The notes under the pieces were generated by a model. It searched no databases, had not been told where the DNA came from, and was given only the letters and a program-made list of their open reading frames with translations. A stretch of DNA of 46,663 nt from Thiohalomonas denitrificans (lineage in GTDB: Bacteria > Pseudomonadota > Gammaproteobacteria > Thiohalomonadales > Thiohalomonadaceae). Below are positions 43,133 to 46,663 of the stretch, piece by piece. The DNA lies in assembly GCF_016841685.1 (NCBI RefSeq), contig NZ_JAENYR010000023.1, forward strand, positions 1 through 46,663. Direction: 5' to 3'. The position numbers and the translations under genes are program-made. Within the stretch, counting starts at the first letter, position 1; every line of letters begins with the position of its first letter.

Positions 43133-43200
43133 CGTCACTCCCGCGAAAGCGGGAGCCCAGTAAAATCAACGGCTGGGCTCCCGCTTTCGCGGGAGTGACG
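43133..43200. repeat. Perfect 28-bp inverted repeat (CGTCACTCCCGCGAAAGCGG type)
   Basis: Bases 43133-43160 are the exact reverse complement of 43173-43200, with a 12-base loop TAAAATCAACGG. Within each arm CCCGCGAAAGCGGG is itself palindromic. To the left lies GAACCTCTAAAAATTC and to the right AATTTATAGAAGTGCCC, which are imperfectly inverted, so it may be the centre of a MITE-like element. Ends the diguanylate cyclase transcript region; no gene from 42990 to 43517. Confidence 0.75.
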
Positions 43201-43240
43201 AATTTATAGAAGTGCCCTTCGAATTTATAGAAGTGCCCTT
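43201..43240. repeat. Tandem AATTTATAGAAGTGCCCTT pair
   Basis: AATTTATAGAAGTGCCCTT occurs at 43201-43219 and again at 43222-43240 separated by CG. The ATAGAAGTGCCCTT end equals the terminus of the 271-bp element at 34813-35083, suggesting leftover ends of related elements. Confidence 0.7.
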
Positions 43241-43299
43241 AAAGGTGCATCCCGTATACGGAGCACGGCCTTATCGGTAAGATTGTTTAGTGTCGAACC

Positions 43300-43491
43300 G
43301 TAACTACTCACCCCCTCCGTCATCCCCGCGTAGGCGGGGATCCAGGGTTGGCGGGTGAGGCTGTAATTCCTATCAATGCCCGTCATCCCCGCGTAGGCGG
43401 GGATCCAGAGGACAGAAGCATGGCTCAAAATGGATCCCCGCCTATTGACGGATTTCCCGGGCCATGCGTGATCACCCGGGCGAGCAGTTAC
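43300..43491 (+). mobile_element. GTAACT...AGTTAC element, 192 bp, upstream of oxyR
   Basis: Begins GTAACTACTC (43300) and ends GAGCAGTTAC (43482-43491). Flanks are GTCGAACC (43292-43299) and GTCGAACT (43492-43499), an 8-bp target duplication with one mismatch. The palindrome CCCCGCGTAGGCGGGG with CATCC...ATCCAG occurs twice inside (43321 and 43382), an internal duplication that makes this copy longer than the 136-bp form. It ends 26 bases before the oxyR ATG. Confidence 0.88.
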
Positions 43492-43517
43492 GTCGAACTT
43501 TCCTATGGGTGTGGTCG

Positions 43518-44414
43518 ATGAATCTGCGGGATCTTGAATATCTGGTGGCACTGGATGAGGAGCGCCATTTCCAGCGTGCCGCGGACCGCTGCTACGTGAG
43601 TCAACCGACCCTCAGCGGGCAGGTCAAGAAGCTCGAGGGTGAGCTGAATGTCTCGCTGGTAGAGCGCAGCGGCCGAAAGATCGCTATGACGGAAGCGGGT
43701 CTGGCGATTGCCGGGCAGGCCCGCCGGGTCCTCGCGGAAACACGCACCATCCGAGAGTTGGCCGCCGGCTTCCGAAATCCGATGGAGGGCGACCTGCACA
43801 TGGGCGTAATCCCCACCGTGGCGCCTTATCTGCTGCCGCTGTTCATACCGCATCTGCGGCGCCGTTATCCGGCTCTCAAACTTTTCCTTCACGAGCACCA
43901 AACGGCCGTTTTGCTTCAGAAATTGCGTGATGCGGAGCTGGAACTGCTGCTGCTTGCGTTGCCCGTGGAAACCGACGAGTTCGTCGAAAGTGACCTTTTT
44001 CGCGAGCCCTTTCTCTTGACCGTGGCCGAAGATGACCCGCTCGCCAAGCGTGAGCGGGCGTCTCTCGATCTGCTGGAGGGCCTTGAGGTGATGCTGCTGG
44101 AGGAGGGGCACTGCATGCGAGGCCAGGCGCTCGATGTCTGCCTGACCGCAGGCGCCCGCGAGCATCGGGGATTTCGGGGGACCAGTTTGGAGACCCTGCG
44201 ACAAATGGCCGCCGAGGGGATCGGCATCACGCTGATGCCGAAGCTCGCCACCCTGCGGGAGCGAAACCATGAGGGACCGATTCGTTATATCCCCTTTGAG
44301 GAGCCGGAACCTACCCGGCGCATCGGGCTTCTTTACCGCAAGGGGAGTTACCGGGAGGAGAGTTTCGCTGCCATCGGGGAAGTGATTCGCGAGTCCGTCG
44401 CCACCAGCCTCTAA
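43518..44414 (+). CDS. oxyR: Hydrogen-peroxide sensor OxyR (LysR family)
   Basis: 298 residues from ATG 43518; an upstream in-frame ATG (43464) lies inside the repeat element and is not credible. LysR helix-turn-helix 3-60 (LEYLVALDEERHFQRAADRC, SQPTLSGQVKKLE) and an effector domain with C199 and C208 (EEGHCMRGQALDVC), the two residues at the same numbers as in E. coli OxyR that form the peroxide-sensing disulfide. T-loop region SLETLRQMAAEGIGITLMP is also conserved. Oxidised OxyR activates antioxidant genes; a matching operator lies downstream at 44464 before rubrerythrin. A repeat element separates the gene from any old promoter, and a hairpin-prone GC stretch (CCTGCCAGCC...GGCTTGGCGGG) follows the stop. 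Confidence 0.93.
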   Translation: MNLRDLEYLVALDEERHFQRAADRCYVSQPTLSGQVKKLEGELNVSLVERSGRKIAMTEAGLAIAGQARRVLAETRTIRELAAGFRNPMEGDLHMGVIPTVAPYLLPLFIPHLRRRYPALKLFLHEHQTAVLLQKLRDAELELLLLALPVETDEFVESDLFREPFLLTVAEDDPLAKRERASLDLLEGLEVMLLEEGHCMRGQALDVCLTAGAREHRGFRGTSLETLRQMAAEGIGITLMPKLATLRERNHEGPIRYIPFEEPEPTRRIGLLYRKGSYREESFAAIGEVIRESVATSL

Positions 44415-44463
44415 CCCTGCCAGCCTGGCCCCTGCCGGCTTGGCGGGCCCCCTCATTTCAATC

Positions 44464-44500
44464 ATAGGCACAGCCTATCAAACCCATCGGAACATTCGAT
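44464..44500 (+). promoter_or_regulatory. OxyR operator upstream of rubrerythrin
   Basis: Four half-sites with exact spacing: ATAG-N7-CTAT-N7-ATCG-N7-CGAT, at 44464, 44475, 44486 and 44497. This is the tetrameric OxyR-binding layout ATAGN7CTATN7ATAGN7CTAT with two one-base deviations in the second pair. It abuts the -35 box (TTGCAA, 44500-44505), the position expected for activation of a sigma-70 promoter by OxyR. Confidence 0.85.
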
Positions 44501-44528
44501 TGCAATATTTTTAGACTCATTCTATATT
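44500..44528 (+). promoter_or_regulatory. Sigma-70 promoter for rubrerythrin / Fe-S gene unit
   Basis: TTGCAA (44500-44505) and TATATT (44523-44528) are separated by 17 bases, a good -35/-10 pair. The start point would be near 44535, so the mRNA has a leader of about 185 bases that includes the repeat element at 44563-44698. Confidence 0.8.
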
Positions 44529-44562
44529 CCATATTGCCCATGCGGATTATTTAACCGATAAC

Positions 44563-44698
44563 GTAACTACTCACCACCTCCGTCATTCCCGCGTAGGCGG
44601 GAATCCAGAGAACAGAAGCATGGCTCAAAATGGATCCCCGCCTACGCGGGGATGACGGATTTCCTGGGCCGTGTGCGATCGCCCGGGCGAGCAGTTAC
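44563..44698 (+). mobile_element. GTAACT...AGTTAC element, 136 bp, with exact 8-bp target duplication
   Basis: Clean reference copy. Termini GTAACTACTC (44563-44572) and GAGCAGTTAC (44689-44698) are inverted repeats with 9 of 10 bases matching. CCGATAAC occurs on both sides (44555-44562 and 44699-44706), an exact 8-bp target duplication. Inside are two palindromic arms: CATTCCCGCGTAGGCGGGAATC and its partner near GATCCCCGCCTACGCGGGGATG, around AGAAGCATGGCTCAAAATGG. GTAA ends and 8-bp duplications are the habits of IS66-family elements. It lies between the promoter and the rubrerythrin ribosome-binding site. Confidence 0.93.
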
Positions 44699-44718
44699 CC
44701 GATAACAAGGAGAGCAAT

Positions 44719-45138
44719 ATGGAACTGAAAGGCAGTAAGACTGAAGAGCATCTCAAAGAGGCCTTTGCAGGCGAGTCCCAGGCCAACCGTCGCTATCTCT
44801 ATTTCGCTTCCAAGGCCGATATCGAAGGCTTCAACGATGTTGCCACCGTGTTCCGCTCCACGGCAGAAGGTGAAACCGGCCATGCCCATGGCCACCTGGA
44901 GTACCTGGAGGAGTGCGGCGATCCGGCAACGGGAATGGCCTTCGGTGCCACCGACGCGAACCTGAAGACGGCGGTTGCCGGCGAGACCCACGAGTACACC
45001 GACATGTACCCGGGCATGGCCAAAACCGCCCGTGATGAAGGTTTCGATGAAATCGCCGATTGGTTCGAAACCCTGGCCAAGGCGGAGCGTTCGCACGCCA
45101 ACCGCTTCCAGAAAGCCCTGGATAATCTGGAAGGCTGA
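44719..45138 (+). CDS. Rubrerythrin-type diiron protein without rubredoxin domain
   Basis: 139 residues from ATG 44719, preceded by CAAGGAGAG; an in-frame upstream ATG (44671) is in the repeat element. A ferritin-like four-helix bundle carrying the diiron ligands: [13 protein letters not shown] (E19), [11 protein letters not shown] (E50/E52, H55), AGETHEY (E89) and [11 protein letters not shown] (E123, H126). The C-terminal rubredoxin domain of classical rubrerythrin is missing, so electrons must come from another protein. Rubrerythrins reduce hydrogen peroxide. The OxyR operator upstream and the Fe-S oxidoreductase downstream support a peroxide-reducing pair. Confidence 0.92.
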
Positions 45139-45144
45139 TAATGT

Positions 45145-45171
45145 GCACCGGAGCCCTTTCGGCTCCGGTGC
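45145..45171 (+). terminator. Stem-loop between rubrerythrin and Fe-S gene
   Basis: GCACCGGAGCC (45145-45155) pairs with GGCTCCGGTGC (45161-45171) around CTTTC; an 11-bp perfect stem with no U-run. It may attenuate readthrough or protect the rubrerythrin transcript, giving more rubrerythrin than the downstream protein. Confidence 0.55.
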
Positions 45172-45202
45172 GCCTCTCGAATGCACGTGAGGAGTAAACA
45201 GA

Positions 45203-46549
45203 ATGTCTGCACCCACCGAGTCTGTAAAAGAAGGCAACCTGAAGGCGCCGACCCGGCATCCGCTGGATTGGAAGGGGGCTGGATTCTACGACGAGGGAAA
45301 CCTGTTTCAGGAGATGGAGCGCGTGTTCGATCTCTGTCACGGGTGCAGGCGCTGCGTGAGCCTCTGTCAAAGCTTTCCCACCCTGTTCGATCTGGTAGAC
45401 GAGTCGGACACGATGGAAGTGGATGGTGTGGCGAAGGATGACTACTGGAAGGTGGTCGATCACTGCTATCTGTGTGACCTCTGCTACATGACCAAGTGTC
45501 CCTATGTGCCTCCACACGAGTGGAATATCGATTTTCCGCACTTGATGCTCCGCGCCAAGGCGGTCAAATTCGGAAAGGGTGACGTCAAAACCCGTGACCG
45601 AATCCTCACCAGTACCGATGCGGTGGGTAGCCTGGCGGGTATTCCGGTGGTGGCGGGGTTCGTCAACGCGGCCAACAAGGCGAAGCCCACCCGTAAATTG
45701 CTGCAATCGGTTCTCGGCGTCCATGCCGATGCCCGGCTGCCCGAATACCACTCGAAGACGCTTCGCTCCCGACTCGCGGATAGTATCGGCCGCACGGCCG
45801 AAGGTGAGCCGGCCGGCCCCACCAAAGGCAGGGTGGCCCTGTTTGCTACCTGCTACGGCAATCGCAATGAACCGGTGATTGGTGAAGATCTGGTTGCGGT
45901 GTTCGAGCATAACGGTATCCCCGTGACCATGGCCGAGAAGGAGCGGTGCTGCGGCATGCCCAAGCTGGAGCTGGGCGATCTCGAGGCGGTCGAGAAGGCC
46001 AAACAGGCTAATATTCCGATACTCGTCCGGCTGGTGGATGAGGGTTGGGATATCGTCGCACCGGTGCCCTCCTGTGCACTCATGTTCCGACAGGAGCTGC
46101 CGTTGATGTTTCCCGATGATGAGGCCGTGAAAAAGGTGGCGGCGGCCATTTTCGATCCCTTCGAATATCTGATGCACCGTCAGCGGGAAGGCAATCTCAA
46201 CACGGAATTCAGGAATCCACTGGGTACGGTGGCCTATCACAGCGCCTGTCATCAGCGTGTGCAGAATGTGGGGCCCAAAACCCGCGATATCCTGCAGTTG
46301 ATCCCCGGTACCAAGGTGGAAATGATCGAACGTTGCTCGGGCCATGACGGTACTTATGCAGTCAAGGAGGAGTTTCACCAGGCCTCGATGAAGATTGTCC
46401 GGCCGGTGGTGAACCGGGTGAAGAAGGCCGAAGCGGACCATTACGGGAGCGACTGTCCGATGGCGGGGCACCACATCGCCCACGGCATGGCCGACGGCAG
46501 CGAGACCGAGCACCCGATGAGCCTGCTGCGCAAGGCGTACGGGATTTAG
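45203..46549 (+). CDS. CCG-domain Fe-S oxidoreductase (GlpC/HdrD-like), rubrerythrin partner
   Basis: 448 residues. N-terminal double [4Fe-4S] ferredoxin region: C45-x2-C48-x2-C51-x3-C55 ([11 protein letters not shown]) and C88-x2-C91-x2-C94-x4-C99 ([13 protein letters not shown]). Then two cysteine-rich CCG-type domains: ATCYGNRN...EKERCCGMP and HSACHQRVQ...IERCSGHDG, the second with CSG in place of CCG. This arrangement occurs in GlpC and heterodisulfide-reductase-type proteins that relay electrons between membrane or soluble carriers. In many proteobacteria such a gene follows rubrerythrin, often with a DUF3501 gene; here the window ends too soon to tell. GAGGAG precedes the ATG. Likely electron donor to the rubrerythrin. 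Confidence 0.88.
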
Positions 46550-46589
46550 ACTAAACCCCAAAACGGATCAGCCACAGAGAACACAGAGG

Positions 46590-46663
46590 GTAACTACTCA
46601 CCCCCTCCGTCATTCCCGCGTAGGCGGGAATCCAGAGGACAGAAGCATGGCTCAAAATGGATC
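46590..46663 (+). mobile_element. GTAACT... element, left part, cut by the window end
   Basis: GTAACTACTC at 46590 begins the same sequence as the 44563 copy (CATTCCCGCGTAGGCGGGAATCCAGAG, AGAAGCATGGCTCAAAATGG) and runs to the last base. Its left flank CACAGAGG (46582-46589) should reappear after the right end, if the copy is 136 bp, at about 46726. The flank is part of GCCACAGAGAACACAGAG, a common dispersed motif. Confidence 0.85.

Follow-up and report, generated by a model that had tools for sequence, protein, structure and literature searches.

The window, by which we mean the whole stretch of 46,663 nt that was analysed, carries near its end a gene for an aerobic-type rubrerythrin (rbr). 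The locus is an aerobic-type RBR-RFO-DUF3501 cluster of the kind described in the available part of PMC5114695: rbr lacks a rubredoxin domain, the gene for RFO comes next, and DUF3501 follows RFO in the sister genome (G001), the contig of the window ending before that point. The terms 'oxyr', 'perr' and 'regulat' find no match in the main text of that paper. From left to right, the following features were annotated.

43300..43491, unstranded: second copy of the inserted element family, 192 bp long and separated by 26 nt from the oxyR start; absent from the sister
43518..44414, + strand: oxyR, 298 aa, cysteine pair GHC...C (NF008361, 356.7 bits, cut-off 329)
44464..44500, + strand: OxyR-type operator ATAG-N7-CTAT-N7-ATCG-N7-CGAT, from sequence, matrix and genome scans
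44500..44505, + strand: -35 hexamer TTGCAA, sharing one base with the operator
44511..44525, unstranded: palindromic box TTAGACTCATTCTAT, Irr/ICE-like, 9/10 letters of TTAGA-N5-TCTAA, overlapping the -10
44523..44528, + strand: -10 hexamer TATATT, 17-nt spacer from the -35, position conserved relative to the operator
44535, + strand: inferred transcription start, placed 7 nt past the -10 from the position of the promoter
44555..44562, unstranded: target duplication, left copy CCGATAAC, 8 bp
44563..44698, unstranded: MITE-like element, 136 bp, terminal repeats GTAACTACTC/GTAACTGCTC, internal hairpin with 29-nt arms; absent from the sister
44699..44706, unstranded: target duplication, right copy CCGATAAC, 8 bp
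44707..44712, + strand: ribosome-binding site AAGGAG, outside the element
44719..45138, + strand: rbr, 139 aa, aerobic-type rubrerythrin whose one domain is ferritin-like (PF02915, 104 bits, exceeding its cut-off)
45203..46549, + strand: RFO, an Fe-S protein (PF02754, above cut-off), neighbourhood as in PMC5114695
46590..46663, unstranded: third family copy, truncated where the contig ends; in the sister, a copy lies between RFO and DUF3501

The redox cysteine pair of OxyR is kept in the alignment to the solved OxyR domain 1i6a. The match of the rubrerythrin to NF045767 is limited to positions 3-146 of the 194 in the profile and, with 139 bits, stays below the cut-off of 200.

The OxyR-type operator and the rbr promoter

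The canonical operator of OxyR-activated peroxide promoters is given as ATAG-N7-CTAT-N7-ATAG-N7-CTAT in the available part of PMC5720770. The rbr operator, from ATAG at 44464-44467 to CGAT at 44497-44500, agrees with it in 14 of the 16 letters. The initial annotation had ascribed OxyR geometry to these four boxes, and this can be read directly. A relaxed operator pattern, the alphabet of which was fixed only after the operator data across loci had been inspected, has a single zero-mismatch site in the 3.79-Mb genome, at rbr (44464-44500), and the sole zero-mismatch match in the sister genome is also at rbr. One mismatch yields a single site per genome (L216, G000 C136:12333-12369; L215 in the sister), in both cases 67-68 nt before a gene for a peroxiredoxin-glutaredoxin fusion, which is likewise a peroxide scavenger. 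Weaker sites mean little, because with two mismatches allowed the numbers of sites for the pattern and for its reversed control are similar (3+5 against 2+2 in the own genome, G000; 6+8 against 5+3 in the sister). A matrix trained on 36 other rbr promoters, with the genus of the window left out, ranks the rbr site first in the 46.7 kb scanned (40.8 bits, next site 9.5).

For comparison across genomes, 110 loci from an rbr search (L009-L118) were reduced to 105 by dropping four distant paralogues with less than 60% identity and one locus without a match. An operator of at least 14/16 letters is found at 38 of the 105 loci. Among 10,300 first-order resampled upstream regions, 0.18% reach 14/16 and none reaches 16/16. 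An oxyR-like gene (tblastn, at least 34% identity) lies at most 400 nt upstream of rbr in at least 16 of the 105 loci, window and sister counted (13 on the same strand, 3 divergent); this number is a lower bound, because several loci end before the neighbour would show. The operator scores at least 14 in 13 of these 16.

The hexamers TTGCAA and TATATT represent the only promoter-like match in 43200-45250, and since shuffled sequences average 0.7 matches, the promoter scan alone proves nothing. The position of the -10 is more informative. In 35 of the 38 loci picked by operator score alone (at least 14/16), and in 33 of 36 without the genus of the window, a TANNNT hexamer follows the operator at a distance of 22-24 nt; when the 60 nt downstream were shuffled 2000 times, the mean was 2.1 loci and the maximum 8. 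The hexamer is missing at L061, L067 and L108. The conserved distance therefore places the promoter upstream of the inserted element. The previously proposed promoter TTGCAA-N17-TATATT, abutting the operator, is upheld by this conservation. The claim that OxyR is encoded next door is upheld by the neighbouring gene, which exceeds the cut-off of the NCBIfam OxyR equivalog NF008361.

An operator abutting the -35 is usual for OxyR activation. The rbr promoter resembles OxyR-activated peroxide promoters in this respect, as well as in the four tetranucleotides with the same spacing, the presence of an OxyR orthologue and a target in peroxide defence. It differs in that the target is an aerobic-type rubrerythrin, in the second pair of boxes (ATCG/CGAT), and in the putative box of a second regulator over the -10. 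By its rarity, its matrix rank and its position relative to the -10, the operator at 44464-44500 is confirmed as a genuine site at the sequence level; from this we predict that OxyR binds there and that rbr is induced by peroxide. Among the matches listed in our literature search, the scope of which covered little of the subscription literature, there is no description of OxyR control of an aerobic-type rbr.

A palindromic box over the -10 hexamer

The initial annotation was incomplete in two respects, having missed the second element upstream of oxyR and a palindrome over the -10. The palindrome matches TTAGA-N5-TCTAA, which we take to be the Irr (ICE) consensus, and its single mismatch falls on a letter of the -10. 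A box matrix trained without the genus of the window ranks this box first in the window (25.8 bits, next site 10.8), and a box of at least 9/10 letters within 300 nt is found in 1.2% of resampled promoters. The sister keeps the box with one central change.

A 17-nt box motif, defined after the box and matrix results had been inspected, has two sites in the genome when up to one mismatch is allowed, one at rbr and the other 33 nt before the ATG of an AhpC/Prx peroxiredoxin gene, where the box is perfect (L158/L205, G000 C41:47405-47421). The sister carries the motif at rbr, at the peroxiredoxin gene (a one-mismatch box, L204) and at a third site. Perfect copies were found in 7 of 20 genomes. 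In five of these (G020, G028, G029, G033 and G038) they lie just upstream of rbr, and the other two precede, in G000, the peroxiredoxin gene and, in G018, a gene encoding a haem-type secreted protein. The correspondence is not complete, as the motif is absent from three Irr-bearing genomes (G009, G017, G036) and present in one Irr-less genome (G034), and the reversed control outnumbers it in G029 (3 against 2) and G020 (4 against 2).

Three Fur-family genes are present in the genome, namely Fur, Irr-like and Zur-like (Fur and Zur-like being labels assigned from sequence), and a search for a fourth in this genome found none. The best curated models for the Irr-like protein are IrrA (135 bits, cut-off 150) and Irr (128 bits, cut-off 170). 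Over the 73 genomes searched, the match is bimodal, scores being either 77 bits and higher or 37 bits and lower. An Irr-like gene is found in 37 of the 41 genomes with a box of at least 9 and in 6 of the 32 others; the Fisher p of 3.5e-10 overstates the link, because there are only 6 independent pairs and the 73 genomes were selected from the 105 loci when the scores were already known. The 32 loci left out of this search comprise 9 with a box of at least 9, 4 with an operator of at least 14, and others with neither. Leaving out the genus of the window, the counts are 35 of 39 and 6 of 32. When phylogeny is controlled for, an average of 2.6 of the 6 independent pairs agree and 0 disagree (median p 0.25), so few pairs leaving the test underpowered. 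Box loci without an Irr-like match are L029, L096, L099 and L103, and in six Irr-bearing genomes the box score stays under 9. At L069, L072 and L113 an Irr-like gene in divergent orientation precedes rbr by a few hundred nt.

In Bradyrhizobium, Irr is destroyed by peroxide. The direction in which an Irr-like protein would act at rbr is probably repression. This is the natural guess because, according to the available part of PMC3413700, Irr represses a rubrerythrin-like gene of alphaproteobacteria via a promoter box. The arrangement described here shares with the Irr/ICE genes blr7895 and mbfA of that source an Irr-type box at a gene with a rubrerythrin domain and a genome that encodes an Irr-like Fur-family protein. 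It differs in having a host that, judging from named loci and the rbr-RFO tree, is probably gammaproteobacterial, a soluble aerobic-type Rbr, an additional OxyR operator and a box that is one letter off.

Using cut-offs of at least 9/10 letters for the box and at least 14/16 for the operator, the 105 loci comprise 45 with the box only, 33 with the operator only, 22 with neither and 5 with both, the window and its sister being among the last. At these cut-offs, box and operator avoid each other over the loci (Fisher p 6e-8). A tree of rbr-RFO could be computed for 87 of the 105 loci, those with an RFO match exceeding 250 residues, and 67 of the 87 carry an Irr label. In the comparison controlled for phylogeny, 8 pairs remain, of which 2.6 are opposite and 0.3 the same (median p 0.5), so that this comparison is underpowered.

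Inserted elements and the rbr leader

The sister genome has an empty site, AACCGATAAC followed directly by AAGGAG, which represents the pre-insertion allele. It had been claimed that an element of 136 bp sits between the start point and the ribosome-binding site, and that the target duplication reconstructs the leader as it was before insertion. The coordinates can be read directly, and the reconstruction is matched by the empty site of the sister. As a target duplication is present, we infer insertion in this lineage rather than loss in the sister.

The copy upstream of oxyR is flanked by GTCGAACC and GTCGAACT, an 8-bp duplication with one mismatch. Since the copies at rbr and oxyR are both absent from the sister, two insertions next to gene starts would have occurred after the split, and the region before the gene of the regulator has been altered like that of its target. 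The third copy is common to the sister and thus predates the split. The assembly may have been broken at this repeat. To the left of the oxyR-side element, a short direct repeat gaatttatagaagtgccctt occurs twice at 43200-43240.

The family has the ends GTAACTRCTCRCC, is multicopy, and its members are too short to code for a transposase. The collection drawn from the window and from 36 retrieved stretches comprises 38 copies that have both ends, one-ended copies and those longer than 300 bp being left out; the 38 copies span 126-277 bp, and 35 of them 126-197 bp. The 97 places hit by BLAST do not count as copies, many being pieces or reverse hairpin arms. Flanking repeats of 8 bp with at most one mismatch occur for 24 of the 38 copies (15 exact), and for 23 of 1369 mispaired flanks. 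By a rough gene caller, none of the 38 copies lies inside a predicted gene, orientation classes are mixed, 28 copies precede a predicted start, and for 9 copies a start is no more than 60 nt away. Because this is a home-made caller based on codon usage, which put the rbr start 28 nt inside the right end of the element, and because there is no null for comparison, we claim no insertion preference for leaders. In a search of 39 genomes, own genome included, full-length matches beyond the own genome occur in the sister only, and five others have short matches.

A possible source of the mobilizing enzyme is found elsewhere in the genome:

L191 (G000 C114): IS66-family element, 1587 bp, with a PF03050 gene as a single long transposase frame

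This is the one IS66-family gene of the genome, and the element has GTAACTACTCGCCCCC at both ends. IS66 elements have GTAA ends and generate 8-bp duplications; the flanking repeat at L191, TTTTTCT, has 7 bp rather than 8 bp. Because their ends are like those of this element, the small elements are best interpreted as MITEs that would be mobilized by an IS66-type transposase. As far as the available parts of PMC2229807 and PMC10969869 describe them, the Correia/NEMIS elements of Neisseria are similar in being short and multicopy, with terminal inverted repeats, a target duplication, a stem-loop RNA and locations near genes. The family described here differs in its ends, which resemble an IS66-family element, and in its 8-bp duplication.

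From the presumed start at 44535, the predicted rbr leader has 184 nt, compared to 39 nt in the sister, in agreement with the initial annotation, which had given about 185 bases. The two stable hairpins that it had proposed were also recovered: one has 29-nt arms that are 93% complementary and the other is smaller. The leader together with 30 coding nt folds at -90 kcal/mol (z = -6.2 against shuffles), chiefly via the 29-nt arms. The predicted unpaired probability at the rbr ATG is about 0.2-0.3 here and about 0.8 in the sister, and the predicted opening of the ribosome-binding site gives a mixed result in the same comparison. No intrinsic terminator was found on the + strand of the rbr leader (two terminator-like sites lie elsewhere, the shuffle mean being 2.2), and an Rfam search of 43200-46663 returned nothing at gathering score. 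The available parts of PMC10969869 and PMC2229807 describe that RNase III cuts transcripts with Correia elements. RNase III cleavage would also be the most likely molecular effect of the element at rbr, and having no effect appears about as likely. The sister genome gives natural leaders with and without the element.

Proposed control of rbr and its alternatives

We consider it likely that the rbr promoter combines OxyR activation with Irr-type repression and that a MITE was later inserted into its leader; protein binding, the start point and the RNA effects are what we infer for this arrangement. A sigma-70-type promoter would serve the rbr-RFO operon of the aerobic-type rubrerythrin, in which DUF3501 comes after RFO in the sister. 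In its oxidised form, OxyR from the adjacent upstream gene would bind the four-box operator abutting the -35 and activate transcription. An Irr-like repressor of the Fur family, whose gene lies at another place in the genome, would bind the palindrome over the -10 and hold the promoter down, by analogy with alphaproteobacterial Irr when iron or haem is scarce. After the split from the sister, the 136-bp MITE with IS66-type ends would have entered between the presumed start and the ribosome-binding site. It would have left operator, promoter, box and ribosome-binding site intact, but the leader would have gained a long hairpin and grown from about 40 nt to its present 184 nt. If the MITE has an effect, this would concern mRNA processing (by RNase III, as for the Correia elements of Neisseria) or stability, and not peroxide sensing.

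It is unlikely that OxyR alone controls the promoter, with the TTAGA palindrome being a decayed relic or a -10 with chance symmetry. The box does have a mismatch, the loci L022, L052 and L012, which are close to it in the rbr-RFO tree, carry the operator only, and the evidence for OxyR is stronger than that for Irr. However, a box of at least 9 in just 1.2% of the resampled promoters (300 nt) and the gap between 25.8 and 10.8 bits argue against this reading, as do the box retained by the sister with one central change, the Irr-like gene retained in the genome and the perfect box at the peroxiredoxin gene. Binding of the box by some other regulator (Fur, the Zur-like protein or an unrelated repressor) that co-occurs with Irr by chance is improbable to a similar or slightly higher degree. 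The genome does have three Fur-family genes and association is not proof, and 4 of 41 box genomes have no Irr-like match, but weaker Fur-family matches (at most 37 bits) are seen whether or not a genome has the box, the search of this genome gave no fourth Fur-family gene, and the Irr-like gene adjoins rbr at L069, L072 and L113.

As to the element, we regard it as very improbable that it, rather than OxyR, now drives rbr via a promoter of its own near its right end. Correia elements of Neisseria can form promoters at their ends (available part of PMC2649163), but in a simple consensus scan no site in the rbr element reached 9/12 and the native TTGCAA/TATATT alone was found; in addition, the sister retains the operator and the -10. 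The element as a promoter donor was set aside, as that scan showed no promoter-like site in it. That the element is a neutral intergenic insertion without any effect is a serious possibility, to which we give somewhat less than even weight. It fits with the lack of copies within predicted genes, with the mixed orientation classes (both according to the rough gene caller) and with a ribosome-binding site outside the element. Against it stand the very stable folding (z -6.2) of a leader with 144 additional nt and, as weak evidence, an ATG that is predicted to be less open than in the sister, with the mixed result for the ribosome-binding site.

For the promoter with both OxyR activation and Irr-type repression, a wider scenario can be envisaged, in which aerobic-type rbr promoters of proteobacteria have repeatedly swapped between OxyR and an Irr-like regulator. 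The genus of the window would have both, with the Irr box placed within the -10, so that peroxide induction would be gated by iron status, and oxyR and rbr would then, in this lineage, have received MITEs of the same family shortly ahead of their start codons. We are evenly divided about this scenario. Among the matches listed in the literature search, there is also no description of this promoter type, which is set apart by its combination of OxyR and Irr-type sites and by the exchange of regulators that its relatives seem to show. The alternation of operator and box over the 105 loci provides a ready set of promoters for testing such an exchange.

Further Irr-type boxes were seen at other genes. 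At L159 (G000 C100:3033-3047), a box TTAGAACGCATCTAA precedes an ORF of 57 aa, which has no Pfam match at E 0.001; this locus has a repetitive stretch with unread letters. In the related genomes G018 and G015, Irr-type boxes lie 22-23 nt before genes for secreted-looking CxxCH proteins (L202, L203), which are a possible further Irr-type target in that genus.
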